In this document: in pieces, positions 8,280 through 37,094 of the stretch | Layout: every line of letters starts with the position of its first letter | How positions within the stretch are numbered: position 1 is the stretch's first letter | Virus record (IMG/VR): IMGVR_UViG_3300028840_002691 | Span: 1 to 64,000 of that record | Source of the DNA: a virus | Strand: one strand, 5' to 3' | DNA length: 64,000 nucleotides | The notes under the pieces: model-generated | Database searches by the model: none | What the model saw: the letters and a program-made list of their open reading frames with translations, nothing else | What the model was told of the DNA's origin: nothing | Program-made: the position numbers and the translations under genes

Positions 8280-8412
8280 CTACATCTGGGATGAAGACAG
8301 AAAACTGTACGTCTGCACTGAGTGCAAGCAGGAAGTAAAGCGGGAAGGCGGCATGGGCATCTGCGAGGGTGTGGATGATTTTGAGTTGGATATCAGGACG
8401 GAGGGAGAATGA
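8269..8412 (+). CDS. Tiny acidic protein with a CxxC
   Basis: 47 residues in a frame overlapping the end of the Fis-like gene and the start of the cytidylyltransferase (ATGA). It contains CTEC followed 13 residues later by a single Cys, perhaps half a zinc ribbon. The tight overlaps on both sides support its being translated. Function unknown. Confidence 0.5.
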   Translation: MAFDYIWDEDRKLYVCTECKQEVKREGGMGICEGVDDFELDIRTEGE

Positions 8413-9212
8413 TAGTAACAGTTTGCATAGGCCGAGGAGGCAGCAAGGGCTTCCCAGGCAAGAACAAGTACAGGGTGCTCGGCAAGGAGCTGATGGCATG
8501 GCCGTTGCTGGCTGCTAAGTGCTGCAAGGAAATAAACAGGGTGTACTTCAGCACGGATGACGGAGAGCTGGCAGCCATCGCCAAGTGGTACGGTGCAGAG
8601 GTCATAGACCGTCCACCGGAGCTGTCTACGGATGCTGCGTTGGGTGAGGACGTGTTTGCTCACGCTTACCAGAGCATAAAGGCCAGCGCCGAGGACAGGA
8701 TAAAGCTGGTGGTGCTGCTGTTTGCCAATGCGCCTTGTGTCACGAGTCAGATGCTCACCGAGATGATACGCAAGCTTCGCGAGAGCGAGAACATGATGGG
8801 CGGTAGGTATGACTCCATCTGCACCGTGAGCGAGTACGAGATGTTTCATCCTTCAAGGTGCCGAGTCATTGATGGTCCGCTGCTCAGGCCTTTTTGCCCA
8901 TATGTGGCTGCTGGCTCCACCAGCGACCGCAGAAGCGGAGGTGACTCCTGGTTCTACGACTGCTGCGCTGCGGTGGTCCAGCCAAAGAACCTGGAGCACC
9001 TGGACAGAGGTATGCCTCCGCAGAGGTGGCTGGGGACGCTGGTACTGCCGTACAAGCAGCAGTTCCCTGCGCTGGACGTTGACTACAAATGGCAGGTGCC
9101 GCAGGTGGAGGAGTGGCTCCGCAGGTATGCTCAGTATCCAGCATGCGATTTGCCTGGGGATGAGGTGCATACCGTGAAATGGGAGGAGTTCTGCAGTGAT
9201 CAAAATACTTGA
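8409..9212 (+). CDS. Acylneuraminate cytidylyltransferase-like CMP-sugar synthetase
   Basis: 267 residues. The nucleotide-binding signature GRGGSKGFPGKNK (8-20) and the following STDDGELAAIA and VIDRPPELSTD match NeuA/KdsB-type cytidylyltransferases; DVDYKWQV near the end matches the metal-binding IDVDxxxD region. The enzyme class couples CTP to a 3-deoxy-2-keto sugar acid to give CMP-sugar for glycosyl transfer. It is the first gene of the sugar cassette; a second homologue is at 24466. The sugar is unknown. It is fused to neighbours by short overlaps. Confidence 0.82.
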   Translation: MIVTVCIGRGGSKGFPGKNKYRVLGKELMAWPLLAAKCCKEINRVYFSTDDGELAAIAKWYGAEVIDRPPELSTDAALGEDVFAHAYQSIKASAEDRIKLVVLLFANAPCVTSQMLTEMIRKLRESENMMGGRYDSICTVSEYEMFHPSRCRVIDGPLLRPFCPYVAAGSTSDRRSGGDSWFYDCCAAVVQPKNLEHLDRGMPPQRWLGTLVLPYKQQFPALDVDYKWQVPQVEEWLRRYAQYPACDLPGDEVHTVKWEEFCSDQNT

Positions 9213-9984
9213 GAAACTGGTTATTGAAGACGACAAGGAAGTGCTTGAGAAAGCTGCCAAGTATTCTCCTACAGATATGGTTGAGGGCATAATACTAGAT
9301 ACTCGTAGGCTCTATCTTAACCGCTATCATGATCTGCGAGTGGTTTCCAGGGTGGGTGTTGGTACCGATAACATTGACCTCGATGAGTGTAAGGCGAGGG
9401 GTATAAAGGTTTACATTACTCCTTGCCGTGAGCTGACTGATGCTGTGGCTGAGTTTACTTTGTATCTTGCTTTAGCTCTGCTTAGAAAGAACAGCAGGGG
9501 CAGAAACCTGGTGGGCATGACTGTTGGCATATTGGGTTATGGAAGGATAGGCAGCGCAGTGCATGAGCTGTTTCATTCTCTTAGCTGTGATGTCATGCGT
9601 TATGATATTGATGCGTCTGTTGATTACGGACTTGAGCCGAAGGAACAGGTTTTGTCTTGTTCAAGGATAGTAACCATACATTCTTCTGGTAATGAGCAGG
9701 TGATAGGCAAAGAGGAACTGGAACAAATGATGGATGACTCCTACCTTATAAACACAGCGAGGGCTGGCTGCGTGGATGAGTACGCTGTGCTTGATGCTTT
9801 AAGGAGCAAGAAACTGGCAGGGTTCGCTACTGATGTCAATGAGCTGGCTGGCAGGTTCAAACTCTATAACACGGTGGTCACACCGCACATAGCATCCTCT
9901 ACTGTGGAGGCGCGGACAGCCATGGAGCGGATGGCGGTGAAGAACTTGATAAAGGGGCTGAAGAGTGAGAGGAACCGTAGCTAA
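9196..9984 (+). CDS. D-isomer-specific 2-hydroxyacid dehydrogenase (SerA-like)
   Basis: 262 residues from GTG 9196. Shows VGVGTDNIDLDECKARGI, the Rossmann loop GILGYGRIG (about 110-118), INTARAG with the catalytic Arg, and TPHIAS with the catalytic His. These define NAD-dependent D-2-hydroxyacid dehydrogenases such as phosphoglycerate dehydrogenase. It is short (many are 310-330), lacking a regulatory domain. Beside a CMP-sugar synthetase and an epimerase it probably oxidises or reduces a sugar-acid precursor rather than serving serine synthesis. Confidence 0.8.
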   Translation: MIKILEKLVIEDDKEVLEKAAKYSPTDMVEGIILDTRRLYLNRYHDLRVVSRVGVGTDNIDLDECKARGIKVYITPCRELTDAVAEFTLYLALALLRKNSRGRNLVGMTVGILGYGRIGSAVHELFHSLSCDVMRYDIDASVDYGLEPKEQVLSCSRIVTIHSSGNEQVIGKEELEQMMDDSYLINTARAGCVDEYAVLDALRSKKLAGFATDVNELAGRFKLYNTVVTPHIASSTVEARTAMERMAVKNLIKGLKSERNRS

Positions 9985-10132
9985 GAGACTCAGGAACCAG
10001 GCAGCGCAGATGTGGTTTGACTCAAAAAGGGTCAGGGTCAATATGAGAATGACCAACGGTGGCCGCAGGTATGTGGATGGCAGCTACCCAAGAATGTACA
10101 GGGAGTTGAAGAAGGAGTACAAGCAGAAATGA
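9965..10132 (+). CDS. Small basic phage protein
   Basis: 55 residues from GTG 9965, overlapping the dehydrogenase end and the epimerase start (ATGA). Very basic (RGTVAKRLRNQA... KRVRVNMRM... RELKKEYKQK). Similar short KRLR...LKKEY proteins occur in phages. It is a phage gene lodged among sugar genes, which supports the cassette being phage-borne. Confidence 0.55.
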   Translation: MRGTVAKRLRNQAAQMWFDSKRVRVNMRMTNGGRRYVDGSYPRMYRELKKEYKQK

Positions 10133-11061
10133 AAGCTCTAGCCGTAGGAGGTTCAGGTTTCATAGGCAGCCATGTGGTGGAGAGGCTGCTGCTTGAGCAC
10201 TGGGACGTGTTGAATTATGGGTTGCATAATTTTGCGCCAGAAGTGCGGTATGATCCATTTCAGTACAGGTTTGTCGAGGGCAGCATGATGGACTACCCGA
10301 AGCTCTCAAACACCATGTGTGAGTACAGGCCTGATGTGGTTTACAACTTTGCTGCCATTGCCAATATAGAGCAGTGTCAGAAGCGACCGCTGGATGTCGT
10401 GAGAAAGAACATATTGGGCAACACTCATTGCTTGCAGAGTGTGGTAGATGTGATGAGAGAAAATGATCCTGTTGCTGATAATCCTTTCAATGTACATCCT
10501 AAGTTCATCTTCGCCAGCTCGGTGTATGTTTACAACACAGATGCAGGCTTCTACGGCATAGGCAAGAGGGCCTGTGAGGAGCTTATCAGGGAGTACAGCG
10601 AGCAGTTTTGTTTTCCGTTTGTCATCTTGCGTTATGGCACCATTTACGGCCCAAGGGCTAAGGACGACAACAGCATACGCAGCATAGTGAAGCAGGCGCT
10701 GGAGACAAAGGTTATCTCTTATTATGGCACAGGGGAAGAGGTCAGAGAGTACGTGCATGTGAAGGACGTGGCTCGGTGCTCTGTGGAGGTGCTTCATCCA
10801 GAGTACAACAATGAGGCTGTTATCATTTCTGGCACATATCCAGTGAAGGCTAAGGACATGGTGGCGCTGCTGAGCGACATATTAGGCGAGAACTACAGCA
10901 CGGAGTTCCGAGGCGAGGAGCCAGAAGGTCATTACAAGGTCACTCCGTACAGCTTTCAGCCTGATGTCGCGGTGAAGAAGTCCATCAGGGACAGCAGGGA
11001 TCTGGCTTCTGGTTTGTATGATACGGTGCGCAGCATATACGGGGAGATGGTGGTTGAGTAG
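10129..11061 (+). CDS. NAD-dependent sugar epimerase/dehydratase
   Basis: 310 residues of the extended SDR family. GGSGFIGSH (7-15) binds NAD, FASSVYVYN holds the catalytic Ser/Thr strand, and YGIGK (142-146) is the YxxxK catalytic pair, followed by LRYGTIYGPRA. Acts on nucleotide-linked sugars, interconverting C4 or C5 epimers or forming keto intermediates. One of three such genes here (also 16779, 32877). The substrate cannot be read from sequence. Confidence 0.82.
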   Translation: MKALAVGGSGFIGSHVVERLLLEHWDVLNYGLHNFAPEVRYDPFQYRFVEGSMMDYPKLSNTMCEYRPDVVYNFAAIANIEQCQKRPLDVVRKNILGNTHCLQSVVDVMRENDPVADNPFNVHPKFIFASSVYVYNTDAGFYGIGKRACEELIREYSEQFCFPFVILRYGTIYGPRAKDDNSIRSIVKQALETKVISYYGTGEEVREYVHVKDVARCSVEVLHPEYNNEAVIISGTYPVKAKDMVALLSDILGENYSTEFRGEEPEGHYKVTPYSFQPDVAVKKSIRDSRDLASGLYDTVRSIYGEMVVE

Positions 11062-12295
11062 TCGAGATAAATACCTGGAGCTGGTGGCGGAGCTTGGGAA
11101 GCTGTTCCCAAAGCGACTTTGTTGGTGGTACTCCTCTGTGCATGAGAAGAACACCACCACCAGCAGAGCCTACCACATATTGGCGAAAGACCTGCCAGCC
11201 GAGCCAAAAAGGTTTATGTATGTCAGGGCACTGTACAGAGCTGTAAGGAAGTTCGCGTCAATAGCAGTAAAGAAGGCAAGGAGTGAGCCAATAACAGAAG
11301 TTAGGCAGATTGAAAACCTGATTGTGACTTATGACGGCAGTTTTCTCTCCGTGTTTCATCCTTTGCCTAACGCTGGGTTGCTATATCTGGACAGGGTGTT
11401 TGGGTATCTCAGTTGGTGGGATTTCTTTCGGGTGCTTAGGGCTTACTTTGCTGTTGATTTTGACGGCTCTGTTCGCATTGGAGTTATTGTTCTGGTGGCT
11501 AAGATTTTTGGCAGAGACGACGGCTGGGAGATTTTCAAGGAGGACTTTTATGACTCGCTGTTCGGTGGCAAGTGTATAGAGGGACTGTTCTACGAGAGAG
11601 CGTTTGAAAGAGTGGCAGAGAAACACACAACGGTGAACAAGATCATCTACGTTTATGAGGGGTTTGCTTGGGAGAAGGCTTTGTGTAAAGTGTTTGATGG
11701 AGCGACAAAGGTGGGTGTGATGTGCTCGGTGCCTTCGCCCAACCACATGCAGTACTTCTACCTACCTGACGAGTATATGCCAAAGCCGGATTACTTGGGT
11801 GTGCCTGGTCAGGTGGCTTACGAGCTGATGGAGAAAGCGTATCCAGACAAAGTTTTTATTCTTGGTACAGTGAGGCACAGGCACTTGCTTAAGTGGGAGA
11901 AGATGGAAAGGAAAAAGAGTGACTGTACTTTGGTGATATTGACTCCTAATGAAAGACAGAATAGTTTTCTGATAAACTGGGTTTTTAACAACCTTCAAAG
12001 TGACATGATAAAGAGGAATGTGGCACTCAGAGCACATCCAGATCTGCCAAAGGCTGGCGGGTGGAAGACGATACAAGGCAGTTTAGCGTACTGTCTGCAG
12101 CGAGTCAAGAGGATTGTGGTGTATGACTCCACTGTGGCTGTTGAGGCGTTGGCTTTTGGGCTGGATGTCGTGGTGCCTGAGATGCCTCACTTCGTGCGGT
12201 TGTGCCCACTGCAGGCAGGCAGAAACAATCTTAGAGATTACTTTGACTTCTCTAGGGACGAAGAGCAGATGCGAGAGGCGGTGATGGCTCTGTGA
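11054..12295 (+). CDS. GT-B-like surface carbohydrate biosynthesis protein
   Basis: 413 residues if begun at TTG 11054 (GGGGAG 8 bases upstream, overlapping the epimerase stop); an ATG at 11018 would add 12 residues but lacks a ribosome site. The C-terminal half has ALRAHPDLPK and then VYDSTVAVEALAFGLDVVVP, the pattern of capsule or surface polysaccharide glycosyl/glycerophosphotransferases with a GT-B fold (HP motif and S-x-x-x-E-A-x-x-x-G). The N-terminal half is unrecognised. Likely transfers a sugar or sugar acid in the cytoplasm. Donor and acceptor unknown. Confidence 0.6.
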   Translation: MSSRDKYLELVAELGKLFPKRLCWWYSSVHEKNTTTSRAYHILAKDLPAEPKRFMYVRALYRAVRKFASIAVKKARSEPITEVRQIENLIVTYDGSFLSVFHPLPNAGLLYLDRVFGYLSWWDFFRVLRAYFAVDFDGSVRIGVIVLVAKIFGRDDGWEIFKEDFYDSLFGGKCIEGLFYERAFERVAEKHTTVNKIIYVYEGFAWEKALCKVFDGATKVGVMCSVPSPNHMQYFYLPDEYMPKPDYLGVPGQVAYELMEKAYPDKVFILGTVRHRHLLKWEKMERKKSDCTLVILTPNERQNSFLINWVFNNLQSDMIKRNVALRAHPDLPKAGGWKTIQGSLAYCLQRVKRIVVYDSTVAVEALAFGLDVVVPEMPHFVRLCPLQAGRNNLRDYFDFSRDEEQMREAVMAL

Positions 12296-12480: not shown

Positions 12481-12482
12481 GG

Positions 12483-13355
12483 ATGAAACACTTACTTAAA
12501 AAACTGCCACTGCTCTACAAGAATCCAAAGCTGATAAAGCAAGCAGGCAGGGAACTGTGTATTGACATGGCTAATGACCTGCAGCGGTGGCCTTACCCAG
12601 AGCACTTGATCAACATAGCTGCATTGCCCAAGAGCGGCAGCACGTGGCTCTTCAACATGCTCTGCAACATACCTGGCTACAATCCGTGTCCAGGACTGCT
12701 TAGATCTCTGCAGCTCACTCAGGAAGAGCTGGATAACCACGATATCTCGCAGCGGATGTTCGACGGCATACCCAAGGACAAGTTCACAGTGCTGAAGCTG
12801 CATACAAGGCCAACCAGGAAGAACATAGAGCTGCTGAGGAAGAACAAGGTGAAGGCGATAGTGCTGATACGTGACCTGAGAACCATGGCGGTGTCTCGCT
12901 ACGTGCACGAGAAGACAGACAGGAGCAGCAGGTTTTACAGGGCATACAATGGGATGACGGTTGAGGACGGCATGTGGCACAACCTGAAGATCGTGGTTGA
13001 GCACTATGCTCCTTGGGTTGAGGATTGGGTCTATGTGTGCAGCAAGGATATTGATACGTTTTTCTATTACAAGTATGAAAGTTTGTTGAAATGGACTAGC
13101 ACTATTCTTCAGGATATACTGATATATTATGGTTTGGATCATTATTTTACTATTCATTTTCTTGGTGAATTAAGTAGAATGAAAAAGAGCAAAGCGGATC
13201 TGGAGAGCAACCTCAACACTCCAACCACTCCGCGCAACAGGTCAACTTATTCTGGTGGCAGGCCTGATTGGAATGATTACTACACCAAGGAGCAACGGCG
13301 GTGGTTCATAGACAAGGTTGGGCATGTAATGGCGATGTGCGGCTATGACTGGTAA
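12483..13355 (+). CDS. Sulfotransferase (PAPS-dependent) 1
   Basis: 290 residues. LPKSGSTWLFNML (PKSGSTW at 49-55) is the 5'-phosphosulfate-binding loop of PAPS sulfotransferases; IVLIRDLRTMAVSRYVHEK is the 3'-phosphate-binding motif (RDxxxxxxS). The family moves sulfate from PAPS to hydroxyls of carbohydrates or small molecules. It overlaps a second sulfotransferase by 11 bases. A roughly 130-bp AT-rich patch (13060-13190) inside the gene differs in codon use from the rest. Confidence 0.82.
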   Translation: MKHLLKKLPLLYKNPKLIKQAGRELCIDMANDLQRWPYPEHLINIAALPKSGSTWLFNMLCNIPGYNPCPGLLRSLQLTQEELDNHDISQRMFDGIPKDKFTVLKLHTRPTRKNIELLRKNKVKAIVLIRDLRTMAVSRYVHEKTDRSSRFYRAYNGMTVEDGMWHNLKIVVEHYAPWVEDWVYVCSKDIDTFFYYKYESLLKWTSTILQDILIYYGLDHYFTIHFLGELSRMKKSKADLESNLNTPTTPRNRSTYSGGRPDWNDYYTKEQRRWFIDKVGHVMAMCGYDW

Positions 13356-14415
13356 GAAAACGATTTGCTTCATTTGTGGGGCACCCAGGTCAGGCACCAC
13401 GTATCTGTGCAACCTGCTGGGCAACCACCAAGAGGTGAGTGTGTTTCCAGGCGAGTGCAAGCTCTACTTTTACTGGAACTACTTTCAGCGCCACGGCAAT
13501 GCCCACAGGTTCTTCAACCGCGATTACCTGAAGACTCAGGAGATACTGAACATTAAGGATTTCTTTTATGCGGTGCAGATGCAGGAGTACAGGAAGAAAG
13601 TCTACGGCGTGCAGAAAGACTTTGAGTGCAGCTATGTCAAGTTTTCTAATGGTGACTGGCGCATAGGGACTGTGGTATCTCATTTGTCGCTGAGGGAGCT
13701 GTATAAAACACTTCTGTCTTCGCTGTCAAATATGGACGGCAAGGTGGTGGTGTTCAAGTGTCCAGTGGGGAATGAGATTGGGGCCATGGAGCTGGAGAAG
13801 GCATTCGGTGTTGACGACGATTACAGGGCCAAGTTCATCCACATCAAAAGGGACTACGCTACAAGGTACATCAGCGCCAAGATGCGCAGGAGGAGAAGGG
13901 GATTTGTGAGGAGTTTGAACGGTAAGGACTTCGCATCAGCGCACGCTGAAGTAGGTATGTTGAGCGATACATTGGCTGAGTTGAATAAGCTGCTTCTGGG
14001 GTCTACGACATATATGGTTACGCATTATGAGAACCTTGCGGAAGATCCTGCTGGGGTGATGTTTTATGTGGATGAGTTCCTGGGGCTGAAGGGGAGGAAG
14101 GAGTTTGAAGTAGACATAGAGGCGGAGCCACGATCTACTTTTGGTGAGCCTGGCAGCACATTGGACAGGAACAGAAGGTACATGAAGCACACCACTCAGG
14201 CTGAGAGAAACATTGTGTCGTTCGTAAGCGGAGTCAAGCCCAGACTGGCTGCTGAGGACTTCTTTCTGCCTCTGAAGTACGAGCACCCATTGGATTATTG
14301 CAGAAATAGAAAGTGGATGCTGGACAATCTCAGGGGTGGATGCGAGAACGTGAAGAGAAAACTCTACTGGCAGATGATGCGCAAATTTGACAGAGGGGAG
14401 GAGGTAACGGATTGA
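13345..14415 (+). CDS. Sulfotransferase (PAPS-dependent) 2
   Basis: 356 residues. GAPRSGTTYLCNLLGNHQEV (PRSGTTY at 14-20) is the PAPS 5' loop, and the FIHIKRDYATRYISAKMRRR region stands where the 3'-phosphate motif should be, with Arg-Asp present. The gene is more divergent than the one upstream. It may sulfate a different position on the same glycan, a sugar nucleotide, or a lipid. Tight overlaps on both sides place it in the cassette operon. Confidence 0.78.
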   Translation: MTGKKTICFICGAPRSGTTYLCNLLGNHQEVSVFPGECKLYFYWNYFQRHGNAHRFFNRDYLKTQEILNIKDFFYAVQMQEYRKKVYGVQKDFECSYVKFSNGDWRIGTVVSHLSLRELYKTLLSSLSNMDGKVVVFKCPVGNEIGAMELEKAFGVDDDYRAKFIHIKRDYATRYISAKMRRRRRGFVRSLNGKDFASAHAEVGMLSDTLAELNKLLLGSTTYMVTHYENLAEDPAGVMFYVDEFLGLKGRKEFEVDIEAEPRSTFGEPGSTLDRNRRYMKHTTQAERNIVSFVSGVKPRLAAEDFFLPLKYEHPLDYCRNRKWMLDNLRGGCENVKRKLYWQMMRKFDRGEEVTD

Positions 14416-15413
14416 AATTCACTATAGGCTTCGAGAAGGAAGACAAGGCAAAACTCTACGGTCACTTCGACAAGATCATAGCCACGGAGCGGTGGTCGGA
14501 GGGACCGTTCACTGAGCTGTTTGAACAGAAATGGGCAGAGTACGTTGGCACAAAGTACGCCGTGGCTTTCAGCAGTTGGTTTGGGGCTGCGATGGCTGCT
14601 CTGGAGTATTTTAATGTGAGGGGTAGAGCAGTTATCTGTCCATCTAACACTTTTATGGCTACACCGTTGTCTGTGCTGAAGGCTGGTGGAGATGTGGAGT
14701 TCTGTGACTGCAATACCCATGACCTTTGTGCTGGTTTGAGAGATGTGATGGGGTGCATGGGCTTGTCTACGGACGACTGGTATGTTGGGCCTGTTGGAGT
14801 GTTCCTGGTGCATATTGGAGGGCATATAGCTTTTGAGGTTGATGGCATAGCCGCTTACTGCAGGCAGAAAGGCATGTTTCTCATTGAGGACTGTGCTCAT
14901 GCCCACGGCGCTATTTTTCAGGAGAAGAAAGCAGGCACCTTTGGTGACTGCGGAGTTTATTCCTTTTACGCCACAAAGACAATAAGCACTGGAGAAGGCG
15001 GTATGCTGGTGACTGATAATAAGTACCTGGACAAGTTCGCCAGAGAGTACAGGAACTACGGCAAGCCCGATTACAGAACCAGAGGTGGCAACCACAGAAT
15101 GAGCGAGTTCACTGCTGCTTTGGGATTGGTGCAGACTGAACGAGTTGAGGATATAGTTGAATGGAAGAACAGATATGTTGAGAAGCATTATGCGGGGAAT
15201 TTTGAAACTGTGGAGTTCCCTAGAACTATGCGCAGTGGTTATTACAAATTTATTATTTTTGATCGTGATGGCTGTTATGGAGGCCCAACCACTGGGGCGG
15301 TGTACGATGAACCGTGCCATTTGATAATGAATGAGAGAGGGAGTTTCCCAGCAACTGATTGGGTGGCTAAGAATCACAAGTGCTTGCCCATTTACTACAG
15401 AGGCGACGAATGA
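14412..15413 (+). CDS. DegT/DnrJ/EryC1-family sugar aminotransferase 1
   Basis: 333 residues from TTG 14412 (ATTGA overlap). IEDCAHAHGA (Asp160) and FYATKTISTGEGG with the PLP Lys189 are the DegT family hallmarks. These PLP enzymes transaminate nucleotide-linked keto-sugars to give amino sugars such as perosamine or the 4-amino precursor of pseudaminic acid. Shorter than the usual 370-400 residues, with a reduced C-terminal domain. A second member is at 25143. Confidence 0.82.
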   Translation: MKFTIGFEKEDKAKLYGHFDKIIATERWSEGPFTELFEQKWAEYVGTKYAVAFSSWFGAAMAALEYFNVRGRAVICPSNTFMATPLSVLKAGGDVEFCDCNTHDLCAGLRDVMGCMGLSTDDWYVGPVGVFLVHIGGHIAFEVDGIAAYCRQKGMFLIEDCAHAHGAIFQEKKAGTFGDCGVYSFYATKTISTGEGGMLVTDNKYLDKFAREYRNYGKPDYRTRGGNHRMSEFTAALGLVQTERVEDIVEWKNRYVEKHYAGNFETVEFPRTMRSGYYKFIIFDRDGCYGGPTTGAVYDEPCHLIMNERGSFPATDWVAKNHKCLPIYYRGDE

Positions 15414-16105
15414 CAGAAAAGCTAGGACCATTTGAGTTAGGCAAAGTGCACTACATTGATGCTGATGAAGGTTGCGAGCAGCTTCCTGATCAATCAGCTG
15501 ATCTTATTTCAATAGATTGCAGTGCGACTACAAGAGGCAGGGATTCTTACAGACTGCTAAAGCCATTGGGGGTTTTGACTCTGTTTTGGACACCGAGGCA
15601 ATTCGATGACGAAGGAAAATCTCATCTTGAGGAAACATCCCCTTATTTTTTGGGTGGGCAATTTAGAGTTGTCGGTACAATCAAAAACTGTGATAGTCCT
15701 TTCATGTCTATTGGAACTCCAGATAGGATTTCTATTTTAGTGAAAGAAAGCAATCCAATTAAAGAGGTCGGGGAAAACATTATCAGGGTCAGAAGGCGTT
15801 GTATTGTGACCAAGAATGAGAGGTCGTTCGTATTTTGCGCACTCCTTATAGAACTGTTTTCTCCTATGGGCGGTGTAGTATTAGACCCTTATGCTGGAAG
15901 CGCAAGCCTTGGTGTGGCAGCTATGTGCTTTGGCAGAAAGTACTTGGGCTTTGATAATGATCCGGCAGTGGTGGAGGCTGCCAATAAAAACTTGGGTCAA
16001 CACGGGGGAATCAGCTTGCCTTCCACCGCGCAGGCTGATGGCAAACTCTACTGCCAGGAGCTGCATCCAGGAAAGGAAGAGTGGTGGGAATTGGACGAAG
16101 AGTGA
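15410..16105 (+). CDS. DNA-methyltransferase-fold protein lacking the DPPY motif, copy 1
   Basis: 231 residues from ATG 15410 (ATGA overlap). The C-terminal part has VVLDPYAGSASLGVAAMCFG and KYLGFDNDP, the SAM-binding motifs of permuted N4/N6 DNA methyltransferases (DPFxGSG...GxE). YRLLKPLGVLTLF matches the helix-strand after motif IV. Yet where DPPY or SPPY belongs the sequence reads ISIDCSATTRG, so the base-flipping catalytic motif is gone. A paralogue at 23829 is similarly degraded. It may be inactive on DNA or retasked, perhaps to sugar methylation. Confidence 0.65.
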   Translation: MTEKLGPFELGKVHYIDADEGCEQLPDQSADLISIDCSATTRGRDSYRLLKPLGVLTLFWTPRQFDDEGKSHLEETSPYFLGGQFRVVGTIKNCDSPFMSIGTPDRISILVKESNPIKEVGENIIRVRRRCIVTKNERSFVFCALLIELFSPMGGVVLDPYAGSASLGVAAMCFGRKYLGFDNDPAVVEAANKNLGQHGGISLPSTAQADGKLYCQELHPGKEEWWELDEE

Positions 16106-16782
16106 TATTGGCTTCTTATCCGAGAAGTGGTACGATGTCCATTGCAGCTTTGTTTGAAAAAGTTGGTGTTAACTCCTTTCACCAGGGCACGAAACCAGGA
16201 GAGAGCACTCCTGCCGACATGAGGATAGTTGGGACTTCTGAGACGAGTGGCATTCACCCAATTAAAAAAACTCCAGAGCGCATAGTTGATAAAGTTAAGG
16301 CAAAGATGTCTAATGTTGGTGATGGAGAAATGTTTGATGCCGATTGGAGAAATTACTGTGTTTTGTACTGGTTAGAGAGATTTGACCCTTCATTGCAGTT
16401 CTTGGTGATGGTACGTGATCCAGTTGATGCCTCTTCCTCTCTGTATGAGTACCATAGGGGCGAAAAGCGGGAGAAGGACCCGAATGATTATTTGAGCAGG
16501 TGGATAGATCTTTATAGTTTTGTTCTTGAGCAGGTTGGGGAGATGACTAGACCAGTGGTTGTGCTAGATTTTGCTGGATATGTAAAGGGTGGTTATACTA
16601 AGTTTCTGCTTGACTTATACGGGAAGGATACCATAGGCAATAGGTTGGAGGTACGAGAGCACTTGAAGGAGAAACTGAACCATTTTGTAGATTACGAGGT
16701 AAAGACTTTCAAGCGCGACCTGGTGAGGAGAGCTAATAAGATAAAGAAGAGACTACTTAAAATGGAGGCACCGAAGACATGA
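16081..16782 (+). CDS. Sulfotransferase-like protein 3
   Basis: 233 residues; starts at GTG 16081 or the adjacent GTG. SYPRSGTMSIAALFEKVGV (PRSGT at 14-18) is a PAPS 5' loop, and LVMVRDPVDASSSLYEYHRG is a good 3'-phosphate motif with Arg-Asp and Ser. It is shorter than typical members. Third sulfotransferase of the cassette and paralogous rather than duplicated: sequence similarity to the other two is low outside the motifs. Confidence 0.75.
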   Translation: MVGIGRRVILASYPRSGTMSIAALFEKVGVNSFHQGTKPGESTPADMRIVGTSETSGIHPIKKTPERIVDKVKAKMSNVGDGEMFDADWRNYCVLYWLERFDPSLQFLVMVRDPVDASSSLYEYHRGEKREKDPNDYLSRWIDLYSFVLEQVGEMTRPVVVLDFAGYVKGGYTKFLLDLYGKDTIGNRLEVREHLKEKLNHFVDYEVKTFKRDLVRRANKIKKRLLKMEAPKT

Positions 16783-17738
16783 GAGCACTAGTAACGGGAG
16801 GCAGTGGGTTTATAGGCAGTCATGTGGTGGACTACTTGAAAGCTGCAGGTTGTAAGGTAAGGATTTTTGATATGCGCAGGCCGTATCAGGAAGAGTGGAG
16901 ATTGAATGATAGTGTTCATGGGGCTGCTAGGTATTATGGGTTAGAAAGCACAGGTATTGAGTACTACCAGGGCAGCTTGTTGGACTATGACGCAGTGAGG
17001 ATGGCACTGGACGACGTGGACGTTGTTTATCACTTGGCCGCTGTGGCCGACGTGAACGTGGTGCAGAAAGACCCAAAGCACTCCCATGACATCAACTGCA
17101 CGGGCACTGTGAACCTGTTGGAGGCAATGCGCTACAACGGACAGCCGAAGCGCATAGTGTACGCAAGCACTGTATGGGTTTACAGTGGTTCAAAGGAGAT
17201 GGATGAGCAGTCTCTGTTGCCTACACCAGAGCACTTCTACACGGCGACAAAGCTGTTCGGGGAGCACGCTTGCATCACCTACAGCAAGATGTACGACCTT
17301 GACTACACCATACTGCGCTATGGCATACCCTATGGACCGCGAGCACGCGGAGCAGCGGTGATACCTCTCTTTGTGGACAAGGCGATGAATGGACAGCCGC
17401 TCACCGTGGCCGGAGACGGCAAGCAGGGCCGCTTCTTTATCTATGTGGAGGACTTGGCCAGGGCTCACGTCTGCGTTCTGGACCATCTTATTGTTTCGAA
17501 GAACCAGATCTACAACCTCGAGAGCAACAGCTACATAAGGATAAAGGATCTGGTCTACCTGCTGAAGGAGCACTTTCCGGAGCTGAAGGTGGAGTACGTT
17601 GAGGGTCGAACTGGCGACTACGAGGCGGCACGCGCAGCGACAGACAAGGCAAAGATCGACTTGGATTGGCAACCTGAGATGGACTTTGAGCACGGATTGC
17701 AGAGGTACATAAAATGGTACGAAAAGCAGTTGAGGTAG
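16779..17738 (+). CDS. NAD-dependent sugar epimerase (GalE/WbpP-like)
   Basis: 319 residues. GGSGFIGSHVVDYL (7-20) binds NAD; VYHLAAVADV, YASTVWVYSG and YTATK (Tyr154, Lys158) complete the extended SDR active site, and RYGIPYGPRARG follows. Most like UDP-hexose 4-epimerases or dehydratases. ATGA overlap with the upstream sulfotransferase and overlap with the NeuB-like gene downstream put it next to nonulosonate synthesis, where a UDP-HexNAc epimerase is often needed. Confidence 0.83.
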   Translation: MRALVTGGSGFIGSHVVDYLKAAGCKVRIFDMRRPYQEEWRLNDSVHGAARYYGLESTGIEYYQGSLLDYDAVRMALDDVDVVYHLAAVADVNVVQKDPKHSHDINCTGTVNLLEAMRYNGQPKRIVYASTVWVYSGSKEMDEQSLLPTPEHFYTATKLFGEHACITYSKMYDLDYTILRYGIPYGPRARGAAVIPLFVDKAMNGQPLTVAGDGKQGRFFIYVEDLARAHVCVLDHLIVSKNQIYNLESNSYIRIKDLVYLLKEHFPELKVEYVEGRTGDYEAARAATDKAKIDLDWQPEMDFEHGLQRYIKWYEKQLR

Positions 17739-26354: not shown

Positions 26355-26562
26355 CACCAGGCACATAAGTGATATAGTTCCGGAGAGGTACAAAGACACA
26401 GCGCGAAAGCTGGCCGAGAACCATGTGGACTGGCTGCTGGAGATGATGAGGCCGTTGATGATAACGGAGTTTGAGCACGGCTTTCGGCATGGATGGGAGA
26501 GCGCGGAGAATGCCCACGAGGAAGACTTCATAGAAGAAATGAGGCAAAGGAATGAAGAATAG
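26347..26562 (+). CDS. Small acidic hypothetical phage protein
   Basis: 71 residues, helical and charged, with a His/Trp-rich centre (FEHGFRHGWESAENAHEEDF) typical of short phage proteins. Overlaps both neighbours. A phage-type gene inside the sugar cassette. Function unknown. Confidence 0.55.
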   Translation: MGDTRHISDIVPERYKDTARKLAENHVDWLLEMMRPLMITEFEHGFRHGWESAENAHEEDFIEEMRQRNEE

Positions 26563-27743: not shown

Positions 27744-27745
27744 GA

Positions 27746-28093
27746 ATGATGAGAGAGATAAAGTTTAGGTGCTGGCACAGATTGGCAGATAAAATGTTAT
27801 ATGATGAGAAGCCAGGAGATTGTCTAGTTTGGAAAAATCAAGGTCAAGACATTGAAGCTGTCATGCAATACACCGGCCTTAAGGACAAGAACGGTGTGGA
27901 GATTTACGAGGAGGACATTTTAAGATGTTATGATAAAACAACTAATAATGTTTTTACACTTCCCTTATACTGGTCTAAAACACAACCTGGATTTTTTTAC
28001 GGATTATATCATTTGAATACGGTTATGATCAAAGAGCATGAAATTAAAATCATCGGCAATATCTACGAGAACCCAGAACTGGTGAAAACATGA
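27746..28093 (+). CDS. YopX-family phage protein
   Basis: 115 residues. The start (MREIKFRCWHRLADKMLYD), the centre (MQYTGLKDKNGVEIYEEDIL) and the end (IIGNIYENPEL) are the classic YopX/DUF1653-like phage signature. Function of the family is unknown. It is a firmly phage-type gene lying between two sugar genes and overlapping the aminotransferase by ATGA, so the cassette and phage genes share an operon. Confidence 0.85.
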   Translation: MMREIKFRCWHRLADKMLYDEKPGDCLVWKNQGQDIEAVMQYTGLKDKNGVEIYEEDILRCYDKTTNNVFTLPLYWSKTQPGFFYGLYHLNTVMIKEHEIKIIGNIYENPELVKT

Positions 28094-29604: not shown

Positions 29605-30750
29605 ATGAGAATACTGCGGATCATAACTCGTTTGAATACTGGTGGCCCAGCCATTCAGGCAATAGACCTGACCAGGGAATTGCACAAACGTGGGCATGAG
29701 TGTGAACTGGTTGTTGGGTTAGCGAGCAGAGAAGAAGGACAGCAGTTTCAGGCAAAAGCAATGGGGCAATTAGGAGATAAACTTGGCTTTTCTTCTACTT
29801 TACAAAGGGAACTAAATTGGTATTGTGACAGGTGTGCCTTCAAAGCTATAAGGAAGAAGATACAGGACTTCCAGCCAGACATCGTGCACACTCATACCGC
29901 AAAGGCTGGCTTCTTGGGCAGGTTGGCTGCTATTACAATCAGGCCCAGGCCGAAGCTGGTGCATACTTTTCATGGGCATGTATTCCACTCCTATTTCAAT
30001 AAGTACAGGAGCTGGTTCTATCTGTTCTTGGAACGGTGGCTGGCGGGGTGGACGGACAAATTGATAGCTGTAAGCAGAAGCCAGATGGACGAGCTGATCA
30101 ACTATCACCTGTTCCCAAGGTACGGTTATGAGGTGATTCCTTTGGGCTTTGACTTGGAGCCGTTTCTGAAAGTGCCCATGTGGAAATACAAGAAGAGGCT
30201 GAACGTAGGGATAGTCGGTAGGTTGACGGCAGTGAAGGACCATGAGCTGTTTTTTGAGTTCGTAAATGCACTAAGAAGGATTACATCTGTAGAGGTTAAG
30301 GCTTTTGTCATTGGCAGTGGTGAGAGAAGGGCCGAACTGCAACGCAAGTATAAGGATGCACTTTTTATGGGAGAAGTGAGGCACAGTGCTCTATCAGCAG
30401 TTTATGAGAACTTGGACCTGGTTGTTTGCAGCAGTAAGAATGAGGGTACTCCGGTGGCGTTGATAGAGGCTATGGCGGCAGGCAGGCCAGTTCTGGGCAC
30501 TTCTGTAGGCGGAGTGAAAGACCTTATAGGCAGGGACGATAGATATGAGTATCCGCCGTTCTCAATAGGCACAATGAGAGGGTTTTACTTGTATAGCCCA
30601 CAGCAAGCAGCTAATGATATCACTCATTCTTTGGACTTGGAATCCTACCACTTCATGATTGCAAGGGCCAGAGAGTATGTGAAGAAGACCTATTCCTTGG
30701 ACAGGCTGGTAGACAGCATTGAGCACTGTTACAGGAGCATACCCAGGTGA
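29605..30750 (+). CDS. Family 4 glycosyltransferase
   Basis: 381 residues of GT-B fold. ILRIITRLNTGGPAIQAIDL is the N-terminal acceptor-binding loop, DIVHTHTAKAGFLGRLAA and FHGHVFHSYF follow, and SSKNEGTPVALIEAMAAGRP is the retaining GT4 Glu-x7-Glu donor site. The family includes EpsF and WbnK-type enzymes. It would extend the surface glycan using a nucleotide sugar. No membrane segment. Confidence 0.85.
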   Translation: MRILRIITRLNTGGPAIQAIDLTRELHKRGHECELVVGLASREEGQQFQAKAMGQLGDKLGFSSTLQRELNWYCDRCAFKAIRKKIQDFQPDIVHTHTAKAGFLGRLAAITIRPRPKLVHTFHGHVFHSYFNKYRSWFYLFLERWLAGWTDKLIAVSRSQMDELINYHLFPRYGYEVIPLGFDLEPFLKVPMWKYKKRLNVGIVGRLTAVKDHELFFEFVNALRRITSVEVKAFVIGSGERRAELQRKYKDALFMGEVRHSALSAVYENLDLVVCSSKNEGTPVALIEAMAAGRPVLGTSVGGVKDLIGRDDRYEYPPFSIGTMRGFYLYSPQQAANDITHSLDLESYHFMIARAREYVKKTYSLDRLVDSIEHCYRSIPR

Positions 30751-31997: not shown

Positions 31998-31999
31998 GG

Positions 32000-32118: not shown

Positions 32119-32179
32119 TTTAGTAAAAGTTTAAGGCAGACAGACATGTAAAAGTGAAAGAGACAGAAAGGAGATAGAT

Positions 32180-32560: not shown

Positions 32561-32620
32561 ATGTGAAGTGTCTGTTTGCCTTAAAAACCCTAGCAAGACG
32601 GTGGAGGAGGTAGGTAAGTA

Positions 32621-32770: not shown

Positions 32771-32876
32771 GATTTACAGACCCATTAGCAAGAGACATAG
32801 TGTTCTTGCAAGAAAGTGTGGGTATGAGAGGAAAGAAGGGAAATGGGTGAGCCACGAGTGAGAAAGAGGAAGAAAA

Positions 32877-33806
32877 GTGAAAACACTAGTCACCGGAGGA
32901 GCAGGGTTCATAGGCTCGGCATTGGCTAGGAGGCTGCTACGGCTGGGGCACGAGGTGTATGTTGTAGACGACCTCTCCAACAGCACCAGAGAAAACGTAC
33001 CGGAAGGCGTGAAAGAGTTCTGGCGCATGGACTTCTTTGACGTTGCTGCTTACAATGCTGTGCAGTTTGACTGCATATTTCACCTGGCTGCACCATCTTC
33101 CGGAAGCAAGTCTTTTGAGAACCCACATAAGGAGCTGGAAGAGCATGTTTGGAAAACTTACGAGCTTCTCGAGTGGGCTTACAGTGTGAGCTCAAGGATG
33201 AAGTTCATCTACACAAGCTCTGCCACCGTGTACGGCAACCAAGCTGAGCCAGTGGACGAACTAGAGCCTCTGAGCCCAAAGACACCATACGCTGCAGGCA
33301 AGGCTGCTGCGGAGGCCTACGTGAAGTATTTTGCCAACAGAGGGCTACAGGCCAATGTGGTGCGGCTGCCTGCGGTCTACGGGCCTGGGCAGAACCTCCA
33401 AAACCGAGAGCAGGGCATGGTGAGCATCTACCTCTCATACATTCTAGCCAAGAAGCGGGTGCTAGTAAAAGGGCTGCCGATACGGTACAGGGACTTCATC
33501 TACGTAGAGGATGCGGTGGAGGGGATGCTGGCCGTGATGGACAACACCATGTGCCGACGCACCTACAACCTCTCGACAGGCATCGGCACAACGGTGCACG
33601 ACCTGCTAATGCTGATGTTCCGGATCTCCGGTCACCAGGAGGGCTACGAGGTTGACGAGAGGGGCACTCCTGGTGACCAGTTCGGCATAGTGCTTGATCC
33701 TGCCAGGGCAAGGGACGAGCTGGACTGGGAGGCTAAGACTGATCTTATTACTGGGTTGAAGCTGATGTATGCTTTTGAAAAAGAAAGGAGTGAGCAAAAT
33801 GGCTAA
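32877..33806 (+). CDS. NAD-dependent sugar epimerase 3
   Basis: 309 residues from GTG 32877. GGAGFIGSALARRL (7-20), VDDLSNS, IYTSSATVYG and YAAGK (Tyr138, Lys142) make this an extended SDR epimerase of the GalE/UXS type; VVRLPAVYGPGQ follows. It resumes the sugar cassette after the 31-33 kb accessory interval. The downstream methyltransferase gene begins inside its 3' end. Confidence 0.83.
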   Translation: MKTLVTGGAGFIGSALARRLLRLGHEVYVVDDLSNSTRENVPEGVKEFWRMDFFDVAAYNAVQFDCIFHLAAPSSGSKSFENPHKELEEHVWKTYELLEWAYSVSSRMKFIYTSSATVYGNQAEPVDELEPLSPKTPYAAGKAAAEAYVKYFANRGLQANVVRLPAVYGPGQNLQNREQGMVSIYLSYILAKKRVLVKGLPIRYRDFIYVEDAVEGMLAVMDNTMCRRTYNLSTGIGTTVHDLLMLMFRISGHQEGYEVDERGTPGDQFGIVLDPARARDELDWEAKTDLITGLKLMYAFEKERSEQNG

Positions 33807-34749
33807 ATGTCCATTGTGCAAAAGTGAGGATATGTTCCTGATAACAAATAAGGTCAGGTTCGGCAAAGAGGCTGACGTTTACCGTTGCAATGACTGCTCC
33901 CTGGTGTTTCTGGACCAGGATTCGTTTGAGTTCCCGAAGGACTTCTATGAGAAGGAGTACCACCAGACCTACCTGACCCATGTGGAGCCTGATGCCTTGG
34001 ACCCCGAGAAGTATTTTGAGAAGGCCAGCAAGACGACCAAGAAGTGGGCTGATAAATTCTTATATCAGTTCCCACATTGTATGGAAGCAACAGTGCTCGA
34101 CGTTGGATGCTCTACTGGTCATTTCATGTGCCAGATAAAACCAAAAGTGAGAGCCGTTATAGGTGTAGAGCTGAACGAGAAGGAGCTGAAGTTCTGTAAG
34201 GAGGAAAAGAAGCTGGAAGTGTATAATGTTATAAAGACGGTTTTGGCAAACAAGCACTTCATCACCATGATCTATGTTCTGGAGCACATAGCGGACCCAG
34301 TGACTTTCTTGAAAGACTGCAGGAAGAAACTTATAGTCCCGAACGGTAGAATCGTGCTCCTGGTGCCATGTATAAATGATGCTCTGCTGTGGCTGTACAA
34401 GATACCTGAGTACAAAGAGTTCCACTTCTGCATTGAGCACCTGTACTACTTCAACAAAAAGACTCTGAATCTGGTTCTGGAGCAGGCTGGCTTCAATGAC
34501 ATACAGATAGAGATGCTTCAGGAGTACCCGTTGACAAACCACCTGAAGTGGCTGTACCAACGAGCACCTGGAGGCCTGTTGGAGTCAAGGGAAGGTGAGC
34601 CACCTATACATCCGAGCATGTTTCTGGATACCACAGATGTTGAAACGGCATGGACTCAACTATGGGCCAGGTTCAACATTGACTACAAACACTTCTTATG
34701 GCGTTTTGGATACGGAGACAGATTATGGGCAACAGCAAGCTACGCATAG
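33799..34749 (+). CDS. SAM methyltransferase with N-terminal zinc motif
   Basis: 316 residues from ATG 33799 (AGGAG 9 bases upstream). CPLC and CNDC near residues 4 and 30 form a zinc ribbon, as in sugar C-methyltransferases and some cassette methyltransferases. VLDVGCSTGHFMCQI is the SAM-binding motif I, with YVLEHIADPVTFLKD and the later IEHLYYFNKKTLNLVLEQAG typical of Methyltransf_23 proteins acting on sugars. Probably methylates a glycan precursor. Confidence 0.78.
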   Translation: MAKCPLCKSEDMFLITNKVRFGKEADVYRCNDCSLVFLDQDSFEFPKDFYEKEYHQTYLTHVEPDALDPEKYFEKASKTTKKWADKFLYQFPHCMEATVLDVGCSTGHFMCQIKPKVRAVIGVELNEKELKFCKEEKKLEVYNVIKTVLANKHFITMIYVLEHIADPVTFLKDCRKKLIVPNGRIVLLVPCINDALLWLYKIPEYKEFHFCIEHLYYFNKKTLNLVLEQAGFNDIQIEMLQEYPLTNHLKWLYQRAPGGLLESREGEPPIHPSMFLDTTDVETAWTQLWARFNIDYKHFLWRFGYGDRLWATASYA

Positions 34750-35774
34750 CAATTACAGGCCTAGGTAATAGGGCTTTGCCAAAAGACCCAGACAGCAGCA
34801 ACTGGGATGGCTGGGTGAAGCAGATCCAAAATCATCCCGGCTATGAGTTGATAGCAGCCCACGATCCTGTTGAGAAGAACATTGATTGCAGACAATACGA
34901 GCACCTTTCACACATGCTCTTTGTGGAGAGTGTGGATGTGCTATTGGTGTGCAGCCCCATCAGATATCACGACTCAGGAATACTGGCTGCGCTGAACAGT
35001 CTGCGTGAGCGTGGCAGTCGGCCAACAGGACTGATAGTGGAGAAGCCATTCTGCTGGAATATCCATCAGGGCGAAGTGCTGTTGGAAGACATCAAGGAAC
35101 TGGGCGTAAAGACCTGTATTGTGCAGAACTGGCGCTTCAAGGACGTGGGCCAAACACTAAGAGCCAATCTGAAGAATGAGGAAGTAGCTCACATATTCTT
35201 CTGTTACACAAGAAACAGAGAAAACCCAAACTACCCAGACTACATATTCAAGGAACCTTATCCACCACTGTACGCTATGGGCATACACCACCTGGACTTG
35301 TTCCGGTACATTCTGCGGGATGAGGTTGAGTGGGTCACTGGGCAGGCTTTTAGGCCGGAGTGGTCGCTGTATGAGTCTTATACGGGAGTAAACCTGTTTC
35401 TGCAGATGAAGAGCGGAGTGCCTGTGGTTTATACTAGTACGTTTTCCAGCCCTGGATACGATTTGAATCAAGAGAACCTGCTCATCGAAGGAAGGGGTTT
35501 TGATTGGAATTTGTTGGGAGATTGGGGTGACGGATATTTGTTCATGAGCACTAGCCAAATGAATACTCCGCCAAAATGTCTTCCTTTTGAGAAAACAAAA
35601 GAACAGTACGACAAAGCAGACAAATATATCTTGGACAGCTTTTACGAAACCATGATACACGGAGCACCAGAGATCTGCTCGGCTGAGGACGCCTTCAAGT
35701 CTGTGCTAGTGGTGGAGGCGGCTAGAAAGGCTTGCGAAACAGGGGAGAAAGTCTACATAAAGGAGTTAAGCTAA
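34725..35774 (+). CDS. Gfo/Idh/MocA-family oxidoreductase
   Basis: 349 residues from ATG 34725 (GGAGA upstream; overlapping the methyltransferase by 25 bases). LRIAITGLGNRALP binds NAD(P), VLLVCSPIRYHDSGILAAL and LIVEKPFCWN (the EKP catalytic Lys motif) identify the family, and YAMGIHHLDLFRYIL fits its (beta/alpha) C-terminal domain. Such enzymes oxidise sugar hydroxyls, often at C3, before transamination by a DegT enzyme. Good fit to this cassette. Confidence 0.8.
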   Translation: MGNSKLRIAITGLGNRALPKDPDSSNWDGWVKQIQNHPGYELIAAHDPVEKNIDCRQYEHLSHMLFVESVDVLLVCSPIRYHDSGILAALNSLRERGSRPTGLIVEKPFCWNIHQGEVLLEDIKELGVKTCIVQNWRFKDVGQTLRANLKNEEVAHIFFCYTRNRENPNYPDYIFKEPYPPLYAMGIHHLDLFRYILRDEVEWVTGQAFRPEWSLYESYTGVNLFLQMKSGVPVVYTSTFSSPGYDLNQENLLIEGRGFDWNLLGDWGDGYLFMSTSQMNTPPKCLPFEKTKEQYDKADKYILDSFYETMIHGAPEICSAEDAFKSVLVVEAARKACETGEKVYIKELS

Positions 35775-36292
35775 TGTACTGGTTCACAGCCGACGAGCAC
35801 TACAAACACAGCAGGATCATAGACTACTGCAACAGGCCATTTGACTCAATAGATGAGAATGATTTAATGTTAATGGCTAACCACAATAGTGTAGTGAGTA
35901 AAGATGATACTACTGTGCATGTTGGGGACTTTGGCTTTTTCAGGACAAAGAAGGAGGCTGGAGAGTACATACGATGCCTGAACGGCAATCACATCTTTGT
36001 CAGGGGTAGTCATGATCGCTGGGCACCAAAGTCTATGCGTGAGATATGGAAGAACAAGATAGATGGGCAGACAGTAGTAGCCTGCCATTATGCTATGCGC
36101 ACTTGGCCTGCATCCCATCACAACAGCTGGCTCCTCTATGGCCACAGCCATGGCAGGCTGCCTCCGCAGGGCAAGAGCTGGGACGTTGGGGTTGACTGCA
36201 ATGGGTATTTTCCTGTCTCCTGGGACACGGTGAAGAAAATAATGGAGGGGAGGCCGGACAACTTTAACTATGTTCACAAAACTAAAGCATAA
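35774..36292 (+). CDS. Calcineurin-like metallophosphoesterase
   Basis: 172 residues from ATG 35774 (TAATG overlap). Metal motifs: DEH (Asp7, His9), VGDFGF, GSHD (for GNHD), CHYAM and GHSHGR. This compact phosphoesterase group occurs widely in phages and bacteria; substrates include nucleotides and phospho-sugars. It might be a phage gene of nucleotide metabolism rather than part of the glycan pathway. Confidence 0.78.
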   Translation: MYWFTADEHYKHSRIIDYCNRPFDSIDENDLMLMANHNSVVSKDDTTVHVGDFGFFRTKKEAGEYIRCLNGNHIFVRGSHDRWAPKSMREIWKNKIDGQTVVACHYAMRTWPASHHNSWLLYGHSHGRLPPQGKSWDVGVDCNGYFPVSWDTVKKIMEGRPDNFNYVHKTKA

Positions 36293-37094
36293 GCTGGCTA
36301 TCTGGTCTATCAGAAAAGCCTTAAAAGAACAGAACCTCATGCCCATTTACGAGGAGCTGGAAGAGATCTTGCCCGACATCAGAGACCAGTACTCGTTTGC
36401 CGAGGTCAACTCGGAGTACAAGATCACCAATATAAGGGCGATGCATGCGTTTCAGATGGACTTTTTGTCAAAGGCAATAGAAAGGGTAGGGGAAAGGGCG
36501 ATCGTCGTTTCTATGGTGTCTGAGGACGTCTCAGGGGCTTTGAAGGGTATCGATATCGGAGACAGCTCAGGCAACCACACTCTGTATCTGAAAGGGCTGT
36601 TTCCGGCCACCAGGTTCAAGATGCTCAGCGTGAACGCCGACGAGAACGCTGTGAACAAGATCGCTGCAAAAGGCCTGAACGCCATATTGTGCTCGCTGGA
36701 AGATCTGGTGATGTTTGAGAAGTACGAGCCGTATGACTTCGGGATGATGTTTGAGGTTCTGGAGCACATAGAGAATCCGGTGGACGTGCTGCGGAAGCTG
36801 AAAAAGATGTGCATAGACAAGTTCATAATCACGGTGCCCTACCTGAGAAAGAGCCGAGTCGGGCTGCACCAGATACGGCAAGGCTCTGGTGGGTACAATT
36901 TGGAGAATACGCATATCTTTGAATTGTGCCCAGAGGATTGGAAGCTGCTGTTCGCCTACACGGGATGGGAGGTGGTAAGAGAAGCTGTCTATTTGCAGTA
37001 CCCGAGGTGGTGTCTGCCGCTGAGATACTTGTGGCGGAAGAAGGACTTTGAGGGCTTTTGGGGATGTGTGCTGGGAAGGAAAGATGAAACTTAA
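36270..37094 (+). CDS. SAM-dependent methyltransferase-like protein
   Basis: 274 residues. KGIDIGDSSGNHTLYLKGLF stands for motif I (usually DxGxGxG, here GDSSGN), MMFEVLEHIENPVDVLRKLK is the conserved post-motif helix, and FIITVPYLRKSRVG follows. The altered glycine loop suggests a divergent member. It is the last gene of the large sugar cassette before the purZ region. Confidence 0.7.
   Translation: MFTKLKHKLAIWSIRKALKEQNLMPIYEELEEILPDIRDQYSFAEVNSEYKITNIRAMHAFQMDFLSKAIERVGERAIVVSMVSEDVSGALKGIDIGDSSGNHTLYLKGLFPATRFKMLSVNADENAVNKIAAKGLNAILCSLEDLVMFEKYEPYDFGMMFEVLEHIENPVDVLRKLKKMCIDKFIITVPYLRKSRVGLHQIRQGSGGYNLENTHIFELCPEDWKLLFAYTGWEVVREAVYLQYPRWCLPLRYLWRKKDFEGFWGCVLGRKDET

Follow-up and report, generated by a model that had tools for sequence, protein, structure and literature searches.

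The IMG/VR virus record IMGVR_UViG_3300028840_002691 (105,094 bp) appears to be a closed phage genome with a seemingly entire nonulosonate-and-sulfation pathway plus an O-antigen-ligase-type enzyme. The pathway genes form a sugar cassette at 8,409-37,094 of the window, which is the analysed stretch of bases 1-64,000 of the record; the remainder was fetched as separate stretches. The record is a single metagenomic contig and the evidence is sequence only, with gene overlap, composition and contig closure used as tests of phage ownership. The single most economical reading of the cassette is a change of the host envelope, with virion glycosylation close behind. Large sugar clusters are already known in phages; for this combination of genes and for its recurring core module we found no published description.

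The cassette contains 35 open reading frames (ORFs), and about 25 of them fall in sugar or methyltransferase families: 20 sugar-family ORFs, four methyltransferases and one ORF (11018) with a weak match to a surface-carbohydrate family. The families were assigned through Pfam and NCBIfam profile searches, and presence in phages was checked in 50,697 phage records. The cassette ORFs share one strand, and neighbouring ORFs overlap at 27 of the 34 junctions, compared with 32 of 94 elsewhere in the genome. A first-pass annotation, made by a model from the letters, had described about 25 overlapping sugar genes in one direction, and the searches agreed with it, including the two NeuB, two NeuA-like and two DegT proteins, WbqC, PIG-L and others. 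The recognised members of the cassette are as follows (PLP, pyridoxal phosphate; NDP, nucleoside diphosphate; SAM, S-adenosylmethionine).

8409..9212, + strand: NeuA/PseF-like cytidylyltransferase 1 (PF02348 1.4e-14; PseF 7.7e-21, under equivalog cut-off)
9196..9984, + strand: 2-hydroxyacid dehydrogenase, SerA-like (PF02826 3e-28)
10129..11061, + strand: SDR sugar dehydratase/epimerase 1 (PF01370 4.5e-37; GGSGFIG and YGIGK motifs)
11018..12295, + strand: putative surface-carbohydrate protein/transferase U425 (TIGR04326 7e-13, under cut-off; no Pfam)
12483..13355, + strand: sulfotransferase 1 (PF00685 2.8e-12; KSGST loop)
13345..14415, + strand: sulfotransferase 2 (PF13469 2.7e-12; RSGTT loop)
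14412..15413, + strand: DegT/PseC/LegC-like aminotransferase 1 (PF01041 1e-59; PLP lysine retained, ATK)
15380..16105, + strand: small N6_N4_Mtase-type methyltransferase a, without DPPY motif (PF01555 C-terminal part 1e-9)
16081..16782, + strand: probable sulfotransferase 3 (PF17784/PF00685 just under cut-off; YPRSGT loop)
16779..17738, + strand: SDR sugar dehydratase/epimerase 2 (PF01370 2.8e-55)
17714..18796, + strand: NeuB1, NeuB-like with SAF domain (PF03102 2e-63 and PF08666; VEKT replaces IEKH)
18789..19481, + strand: WbqC-like protein (PF08889 1e-60; phage relatives at 20-40% identity)
19474..20325, + strand: NeuB2, NeuB-like without SAF domain (PF03102 3e-53; SDH and IEKH retained)
20322..20672, + strand: small protein with one transmembrane segment (hydropathy; no Pfam)
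20669..21619, + strand: PseG-like NDP-sugar hydrolase/transferase (PseG 1.1e-19, under cut-off; PF04101 22.3 vs 22.0 bits)
21597..22262, + strand: PIG-L deacetylase (PF02585 2e-16; HPDDE motif)
22255..23829, + strand: 524-aa protein, possible glycosyltransferase (no family match)
23829..24494, + strand: small N6_N4_Mtase-type methyltransferase b (PF01555 1.5e-10; paralogue of 15380, 31%)
24466..25167, + strand: NeuA/PseF-like cytidylyltransferase 2 (PF02348 1.5e-9; PseF 2e-22)
25143..26354, + strand: DegT-like aminotransferase 2 (PF01041 1e-56; PLP lysine retained)
26552..27445, + strand: GT2 glycosyltransferase (PF00535 2e-15)
27746..28093, + strand: YopX phage protein within the cassette (PF09643 2e-19; found in 538 phage records)
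28090..29379, + strand: class III (HemL/PRK06209-like) aminotransferase (PF00202 2e-34)
29605..30750, + strand: GT4 glycosyltransferase (PF13439 7e-29, PF13692 1e-20)
32877..33806, + strand: SDR sugar dehydratase/epimerase 3 (PF01370 5e-48)
33769..34749, + strand: SAM methyltransferase, MT23 type (PF13489 6e-16)
34698..35774, + strand: GFO/IDH/MocA oxidoreductase (PF22725 5e-7; TIGR04380 1e-15, under cut-off)
35732..36292, + strand: calcineurin-like metallophosphoesterase, weak (PF12850 0.0024, under cut-off)
36270..37094, + strand: SAM methyltransferase, MT23 type, weak (PF13489 3e-5, under cut-off)

The gene set of a nonulosonate pathway is present, with two NeuB, two NeuA-like, two DegT, three SDR and one PseG-like gene, and the families of the cassette support the theme proposed before, a nonulosonate-type and probably sulfated glycan. 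The exact sugar (sialic, pseudaminic or legionaminic) cannot be named because no cassette protein reached an NCBIfam equivalog cut-off (NeuB 250 of 400 bits; PseF 75-80 of 206). Among the 20 sugar-family ORFs, two have marginal scores only. Of the three sulfotransferases annotated at first, two scored above cut-off and the third lay just below it, with its loop present; the PseG-like protein gave a marginal Pfam match and stayed under the NCBIfam cut-off. The annotation had also listed three phage-type genes inside the cassette, of which YopX was confirmed; the ORFs at 29376 and 9965, called conserved phage genes, had no match in the phage records.

No multi-pass membrane protein was revealed inside the cassette by hydropathy; membrane segments and signal peptides were called by simple hydropathy and by eye. 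For the 22255 protein no relatives were found in the genomes or viral contigs searched, and AlphaFold2 single-sequence models of the 22255 and 11018 proteins were uninformative (predicted local distance difference test score of 34). The methyltransferase at 36270 has a 43% relative in a Brocadiaceae locus. A host inference from this match and from that of the HemL-type aminotransferase was considered too thin and was not used.

Uniform decay of the genes, which the annotation had named among the outcomes that would speak against its proposal, was rejected, for the cassette reading frames and the checked motifs are intact (both DegT, NeuB2, PIG-L, the SDRs and the sulfotransferases). The tetranucleotide distance from the cassette to the rest of the genome (0.349) is smaller than that within the rest (0.401), and cassette codon usage is in line with the remaining genome. 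Judged from overlap density and tetranucleotide composition, there is no sign of a foreign splice in the cassette.

Both contig ends are joined by an exact overlap of 18 nucleotides, TGACAAGCGTGGGCAGAG (window 1-568; stretch L005:9545-10095), and recA is split over the left and right ends, with halves that fit in one reading frame. Because the ends share these nucleotides inside one recA frame, the contig closes as a circle, and the record appears to be a complete circular genome of about 105,076 bp. The circular order begins with recA, SbcC/SbcD-like genes (2.3-4.9 kb), the sugar cassette, a PurZ-like gene, terminase large subunit (TerL) and portal; then follow head morphogenesis, head protease, tape measure (66 kb), DnaB helicase and primase genes, and at last AsnB-like, dUTPase-family, uracil-DNA glycosylase, DNA methyltransferase, ThyA-family, dCMP deaminase and DNA polymerase genes. 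Every recognised gene of the record is on the + strand. Two hallmark genes give the context of the cassette.

43273..44964, + strand: terminase large subunit (phrog_2 1e-13)
45648..47240, + strand: portal protein (phrog_21 1e-39)

The PHROGs matches included PolA, DnaB, tape-measure and other non-T4 head families (the T4 core gene set was not searched as such), and the genes searched included no integrase or lysogeny gene. Used as single queries, TerL and NeuB1 recovered no useful close relatives of the phage. Given the circular closure, the continuous composition and the phage hallmark genes on both flanks, the cassette genes are judged from sequence to be the phage's own, as had been argued at first. 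Contamination or misassembly was rejected as far as sequence allows, in view of the end closure and a cassette composition at home in the genome.

Through a NeuB profile search of IMG/VR, we found at least 507 contigs with NeuB, of which 79 loci were kept (collection searches kept the best 80 loci). The viral records compared are fragmentary, and absences there are no proof that a gene is lacking. Much the same gene order was found in five loci (L091, L018, L021, L024 and L035) and in L099, which was found via WbqC: SDR, DegT, NeuB, NeuB, WbqC, a methyltransferase-like protein, NeuA and PIG-L. The encoded proteins share roughly 22-39% identity with those of the window. L035 and L099 resemble near-identical copies of one locus. 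PIG-L lay within a few genes of WbqC in nine of the ten WbqC contigs in IMG/VR, and the tenth (L035/L098) ends earlier. The core of DegT, paired NeuB, WbqC, NeuA and PIG-L is a recurring phage module. In L091 and L099 PIG-L is followed directly by terminase, portal and head morphogenesis genes, and in Vibrio phages V-YDF132 and vB_VpS_PG28 PIG-L and WbqC lie a few genes upstream of terminase; in two lineages, then, the module sits just upstream of terminase. The contig FPLJ01000048.1, filed among the phage records, comes from Moritella, carries bacterial capsule genes and was excluded.

Flagellin commonly carries nonulosonates, and the pathway could serve the glycosylation of host proteins such as flagellin, or the cassette could be largely head-filling cargo ("stuffer"); we regard such other uses as unlikely. 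Stuffer DNA has been considered for the lipopolysaccharide (LPS) clusters of P-SSM2-type cyanophages (PMC3037559), but every cassette gene here is intact, the genes overlap tightly, their composition fits the genome, and the core module recurs in other phage lineages.

The two NeuB genes differ in their metal sites. NeuB2 keeps the metal-binding His motifs SDH and IEKH and lacks a SAF domain; NeuB1 carries a SAF domain and keeps SDH, and its VEKT in place of IEKH replaces a metal-ligand His. The pairs of L091, L024, L035 and L042 likewise have one copy without the metal-binding His residues (SDH changed to AAD, SAD or SSP; EKH/ETH to EKR) and another that keeps both. Every tandem NeuB pair examined, that of the window included, has one member short of metal ligands. 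In NeuB dimers the SAF domain of one subunit covers the active site of the other, so a mixed NeuB1/NeuB2 dimer is a natural idea by analogy. The pairing of an intact with a metal-defective NeuB makes a simple biochemical prediction.

Outside the cassette, three genes have features that point to the cell envelope.

59489..61573, + strand: Wzy_C O-antigen ligase/polymerase-type membrane protein with a tetratricopeptide repeat-like tail (PF04932 1.1e-14, above cut-off)
48119..49447, + strand: beta-helix protein, probably exported, with lipobox-like signal (PF13229 8e-11; N-terminus)
49429..50508, + strand: beta-helix protein, probably exported, with signal-like N-terminus (PF17161, PF13229)

The Wzy_C protein has about 13 hydrophobic segments and contains the stretch CHNDYVENFVEGG. 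Its relatives were limited to one weak match in a deltaproteobacterium, with none among the 50,697 phage records. Of the 48 other phage records with nonulosonate or WbqC genes, one (G020) gave a Wzy_C match, to a protein with 8 hydrophobic segments; its locus holds three NeuB-like and two NeuA-like genes, SDR, DegT and GT4 genes and a terminase. An immunoglobulin-like protein with a signal-like N-terminus was observed at 7164-7853, and the exported-type proteins at 48119, 49429 and 7164 point to the envelope. The Wzy-beta protein of Pseudomonas phage D3 carries an O-antigen ligase motif and is part of a serotype-converting unit (PMC4815439). We favour a host-envelope change because the genome encodes the Wzy_C enzyme and beta-helix proteins that are probably exported, and because D3 offers a precedent. 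In this scheme the host would export nonulosonate sugars placed on its own lipid-linked glycan, and the phage Wzy_C protein would then ligate or polymerise them to give a changed surface. We put this forward tentatively, at somewhat less than an even chance. The annotation had offered the host surface and the virion as targets, and both were kept, with the Wzy_C protein favouring the envelope; a DNA glycan had not been listed.

As we infer the substrates and the order of steps, a cytoplasmic phage pathway would make one or two activated sialic-acid-like sugars. SDR dehydratase and DegT or class III aminotransferases would give an amino-deoxy sugar, which a PseG-like step and PIG-L would free or deacetylate; NeuB2, perhaps partnered by the metal-defective, SAF-bearing NeuB1, would condense it with phosphoenolpyruvate, and NeuA-type enzymes would load it onto cytidine monophosphate (CMP). 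WbqC, the methyltransferases and the sulfotransferases may decorate the sugar, and the GT2, GT4 and U425 proteins may transfer it to a host lipid-linked oligosaccharide. A host flippase would then export the lipid-linked glycan, and the phage Wzy_C-type enzyme would join or polymerise it in the periplasm, resulting in an acidic, sulfated cell surface. The likely benefit would be that superinfection is blocked, or that progeny are kept off old receptors.

Several results weigh against this host-envelope scheme. An initiating sugar-phosphate transferase was not among the recognised genes. The Wzx flippase (PF01943) had no match in the 49 phage records including this genome (other flippase families were not searched), and it was present in 13 of 14 control genomes. 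The recurring module thus comes without this recognised flippase, and export would depend wholly on the host. Wzy_C was unmatched in 47 of the 48 other records, so that the module would act without it in most phages. A distance of 22 kb separates the cassette from the Wzy_C gene, which sits amid virion genes and whose product may serve another purpose.

Virion glycosylation comes as a close second because flippases were not found and because the module precedes head genes in other lineages. Maf/FlmG-type systems transfer nonulosonates to flagellin in the cytoplasm, and here CMP-nonulosonates might be moved in the cytoplasm directly onto head or tail subunits before assembly, giving an acidic sulfated virion coat. 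We consider this doubtful, though worth serious attention. The unmatched Wzx in all 49 records and the module just before terminase in the two lineages fit with it, as does the cassette here, with PurZ and TerL following it on its own strand. The acceptors could be encoded by Ser/Thr-rich gene duplicates of the virion region (58335/58866, 55310/55978), and in mycobacteriophages the capsid and tail tube are known to be glycosylated (Freeman 2023, as cited in PMC12619734). However, no Maf/FlmG-type protein glycosyltransferase was recognised, the Wzy_C membrane protein stays unexplained, and the Ser/Thr-rich proteins are themselves only presumed to be placed in the virion. Duplicated neighbour genes were observed in the virion region at 58335-59393, 55310-57088, L003:46-1308 and L003:11307-12717, with identities of 73%, 53%, 52% and 40% for the pairs; some are Ser/Thr-rich.

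The third target weighed was the phage DNA, on account of two genes.

37912..38946, + strand: PurZ-like 2-aminoadenylosuccinate synthetase, adjoining the cassette and not a member of it (phrog_1211 1.6e-76)
record 98440-99141 (L004:14440-15141), + strand: ThyA-family protein, candidate dCMP hydroxymethylase (Asp at N177 position)

The PurZ-like protein contains FGSEGKGK, and the catalytic Asp of PurA is replaced by Ser; its best PDB match, 7vf6, is a PurA-like synthetase with the same change, and its NCBIfam PurZ score (255 of 300 bits) is under cut-off. The ThyA-family protein has Asp where ThyA has N177, the same as T4 gp42, making it a candidate dCMP hydroxymethylase, though it may instead be a dCMP methylase; its closest relatives come from the human-gut phage records MT836181 and MT121964. 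Modification of the phage DNA is thus possible at A as well as at C. Sugars attached to hydroxymethylcytosine, in a genome also carrying 2-aminoadenine, would agree with these two genes and with the dUTPase-family, dCMP deaminase and DNA polymerase genes near the ThyA-family gene, and phage glycosyltransferases adding diverse glycans to DNA have been reported (Pyle 2024, as cited in PMC12619734). Among other NeuB-bearing viral records, however, a ThyA-family gene was found in none of 41 (a positive control was run) and a PurZ/PurA-family gene in only four of 46, with a profile that also matches ordinary PurA; the module is therefore not coupled to DNA modification. Bacterial NeuB loci also contain relatives of cassette parts. 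We know of no DNA sugar that is a nonulosonate and of no nonulosonate-bearing DNA. We judge such DNA glycosylation improbable, and a doubly modified genome with sulfated nonulosonate-type sugars on hydroxymethylcytosine plus 2-aminoadenine, a novel acidic DNA glycan, slightly more improbable still. The host envelope, the virion and the DNA predict three different sites for the same unusual sugar, and the long-open question of what large phage sugar clusters are for becomes directly testable.

The extent of the cassette, first described as very unusual, has precedents. Cyanophage P-SSM2 has 24 LPS genes, proposed to alter the host surface (PMC2984593), S-SSM7 and P-SSM2 both carry large LPS clusters (PMC3037559), and the NeuB contigs counted above are numerous. 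Like those clusters, the cassette brings about two dozen surface-sugar genes into a phage genome; unlike them, it forms one main cassette with few small interrupting genes in a 105-kb phage whose backbone is apparently different, and combines paired NeuB and NeuA, WbqC, PIG-L and three sulfotransferases with a Wzy_C enzyme. Phage D3 shares the phage-encoded O-antigen-ligase-type membrane protein (PMC4815439), but it has a three-gene conversion unit instead of a whole sugar-making pathway, and no lysogeny gene turned up here among those searched.

In bacterial nonulosonate loci the same enzyme families are clustered, and in 52 of the best 80 bacterial loci a HemL-type aminotransferase was found no more than 10 kb away from NeuB. 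The phage cassette differs from them in having no Wzx match, no equivalog cut-off reached, one metal-defective NeuB, and a phage genome around it. Mycobacteriophage virion glycosylation uses few glycosyltransferases and not a sugar-making pathway. With it and with chlorovirus virion glycosylation the phage shares virus-encoded glycosyltransferases, for which use on its own particle is one possibility, although the acceptors here are only candidates from sequence. The dCMP-hydroxymethylase-like and PurZ-like genes recall T-even hydroxymethylcytosine systems and PurZ-type Z genomes, but unlike in T-even glycosylation the sugar module is not accompanied by the ThyA/hydroxymethylase family in other phages.

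Three further regions were observed in the record. The region 39015-42092 of the window lacks recognised genes and has long ORFs on both strands, seven of them consecutive on the - strand; these minus-strand ORFs may not be real, since the purine skew remains + strand-like. An asparagine-synthase/glutamine-amidotransferase-like gene is located at 93660-95000 of the record (L004:9660-11000) amid DNA metabolism genes, and a protein made of many YGDAQVSGDA-type repeats is encoded at 90953-91891 (L004:6953-7891).

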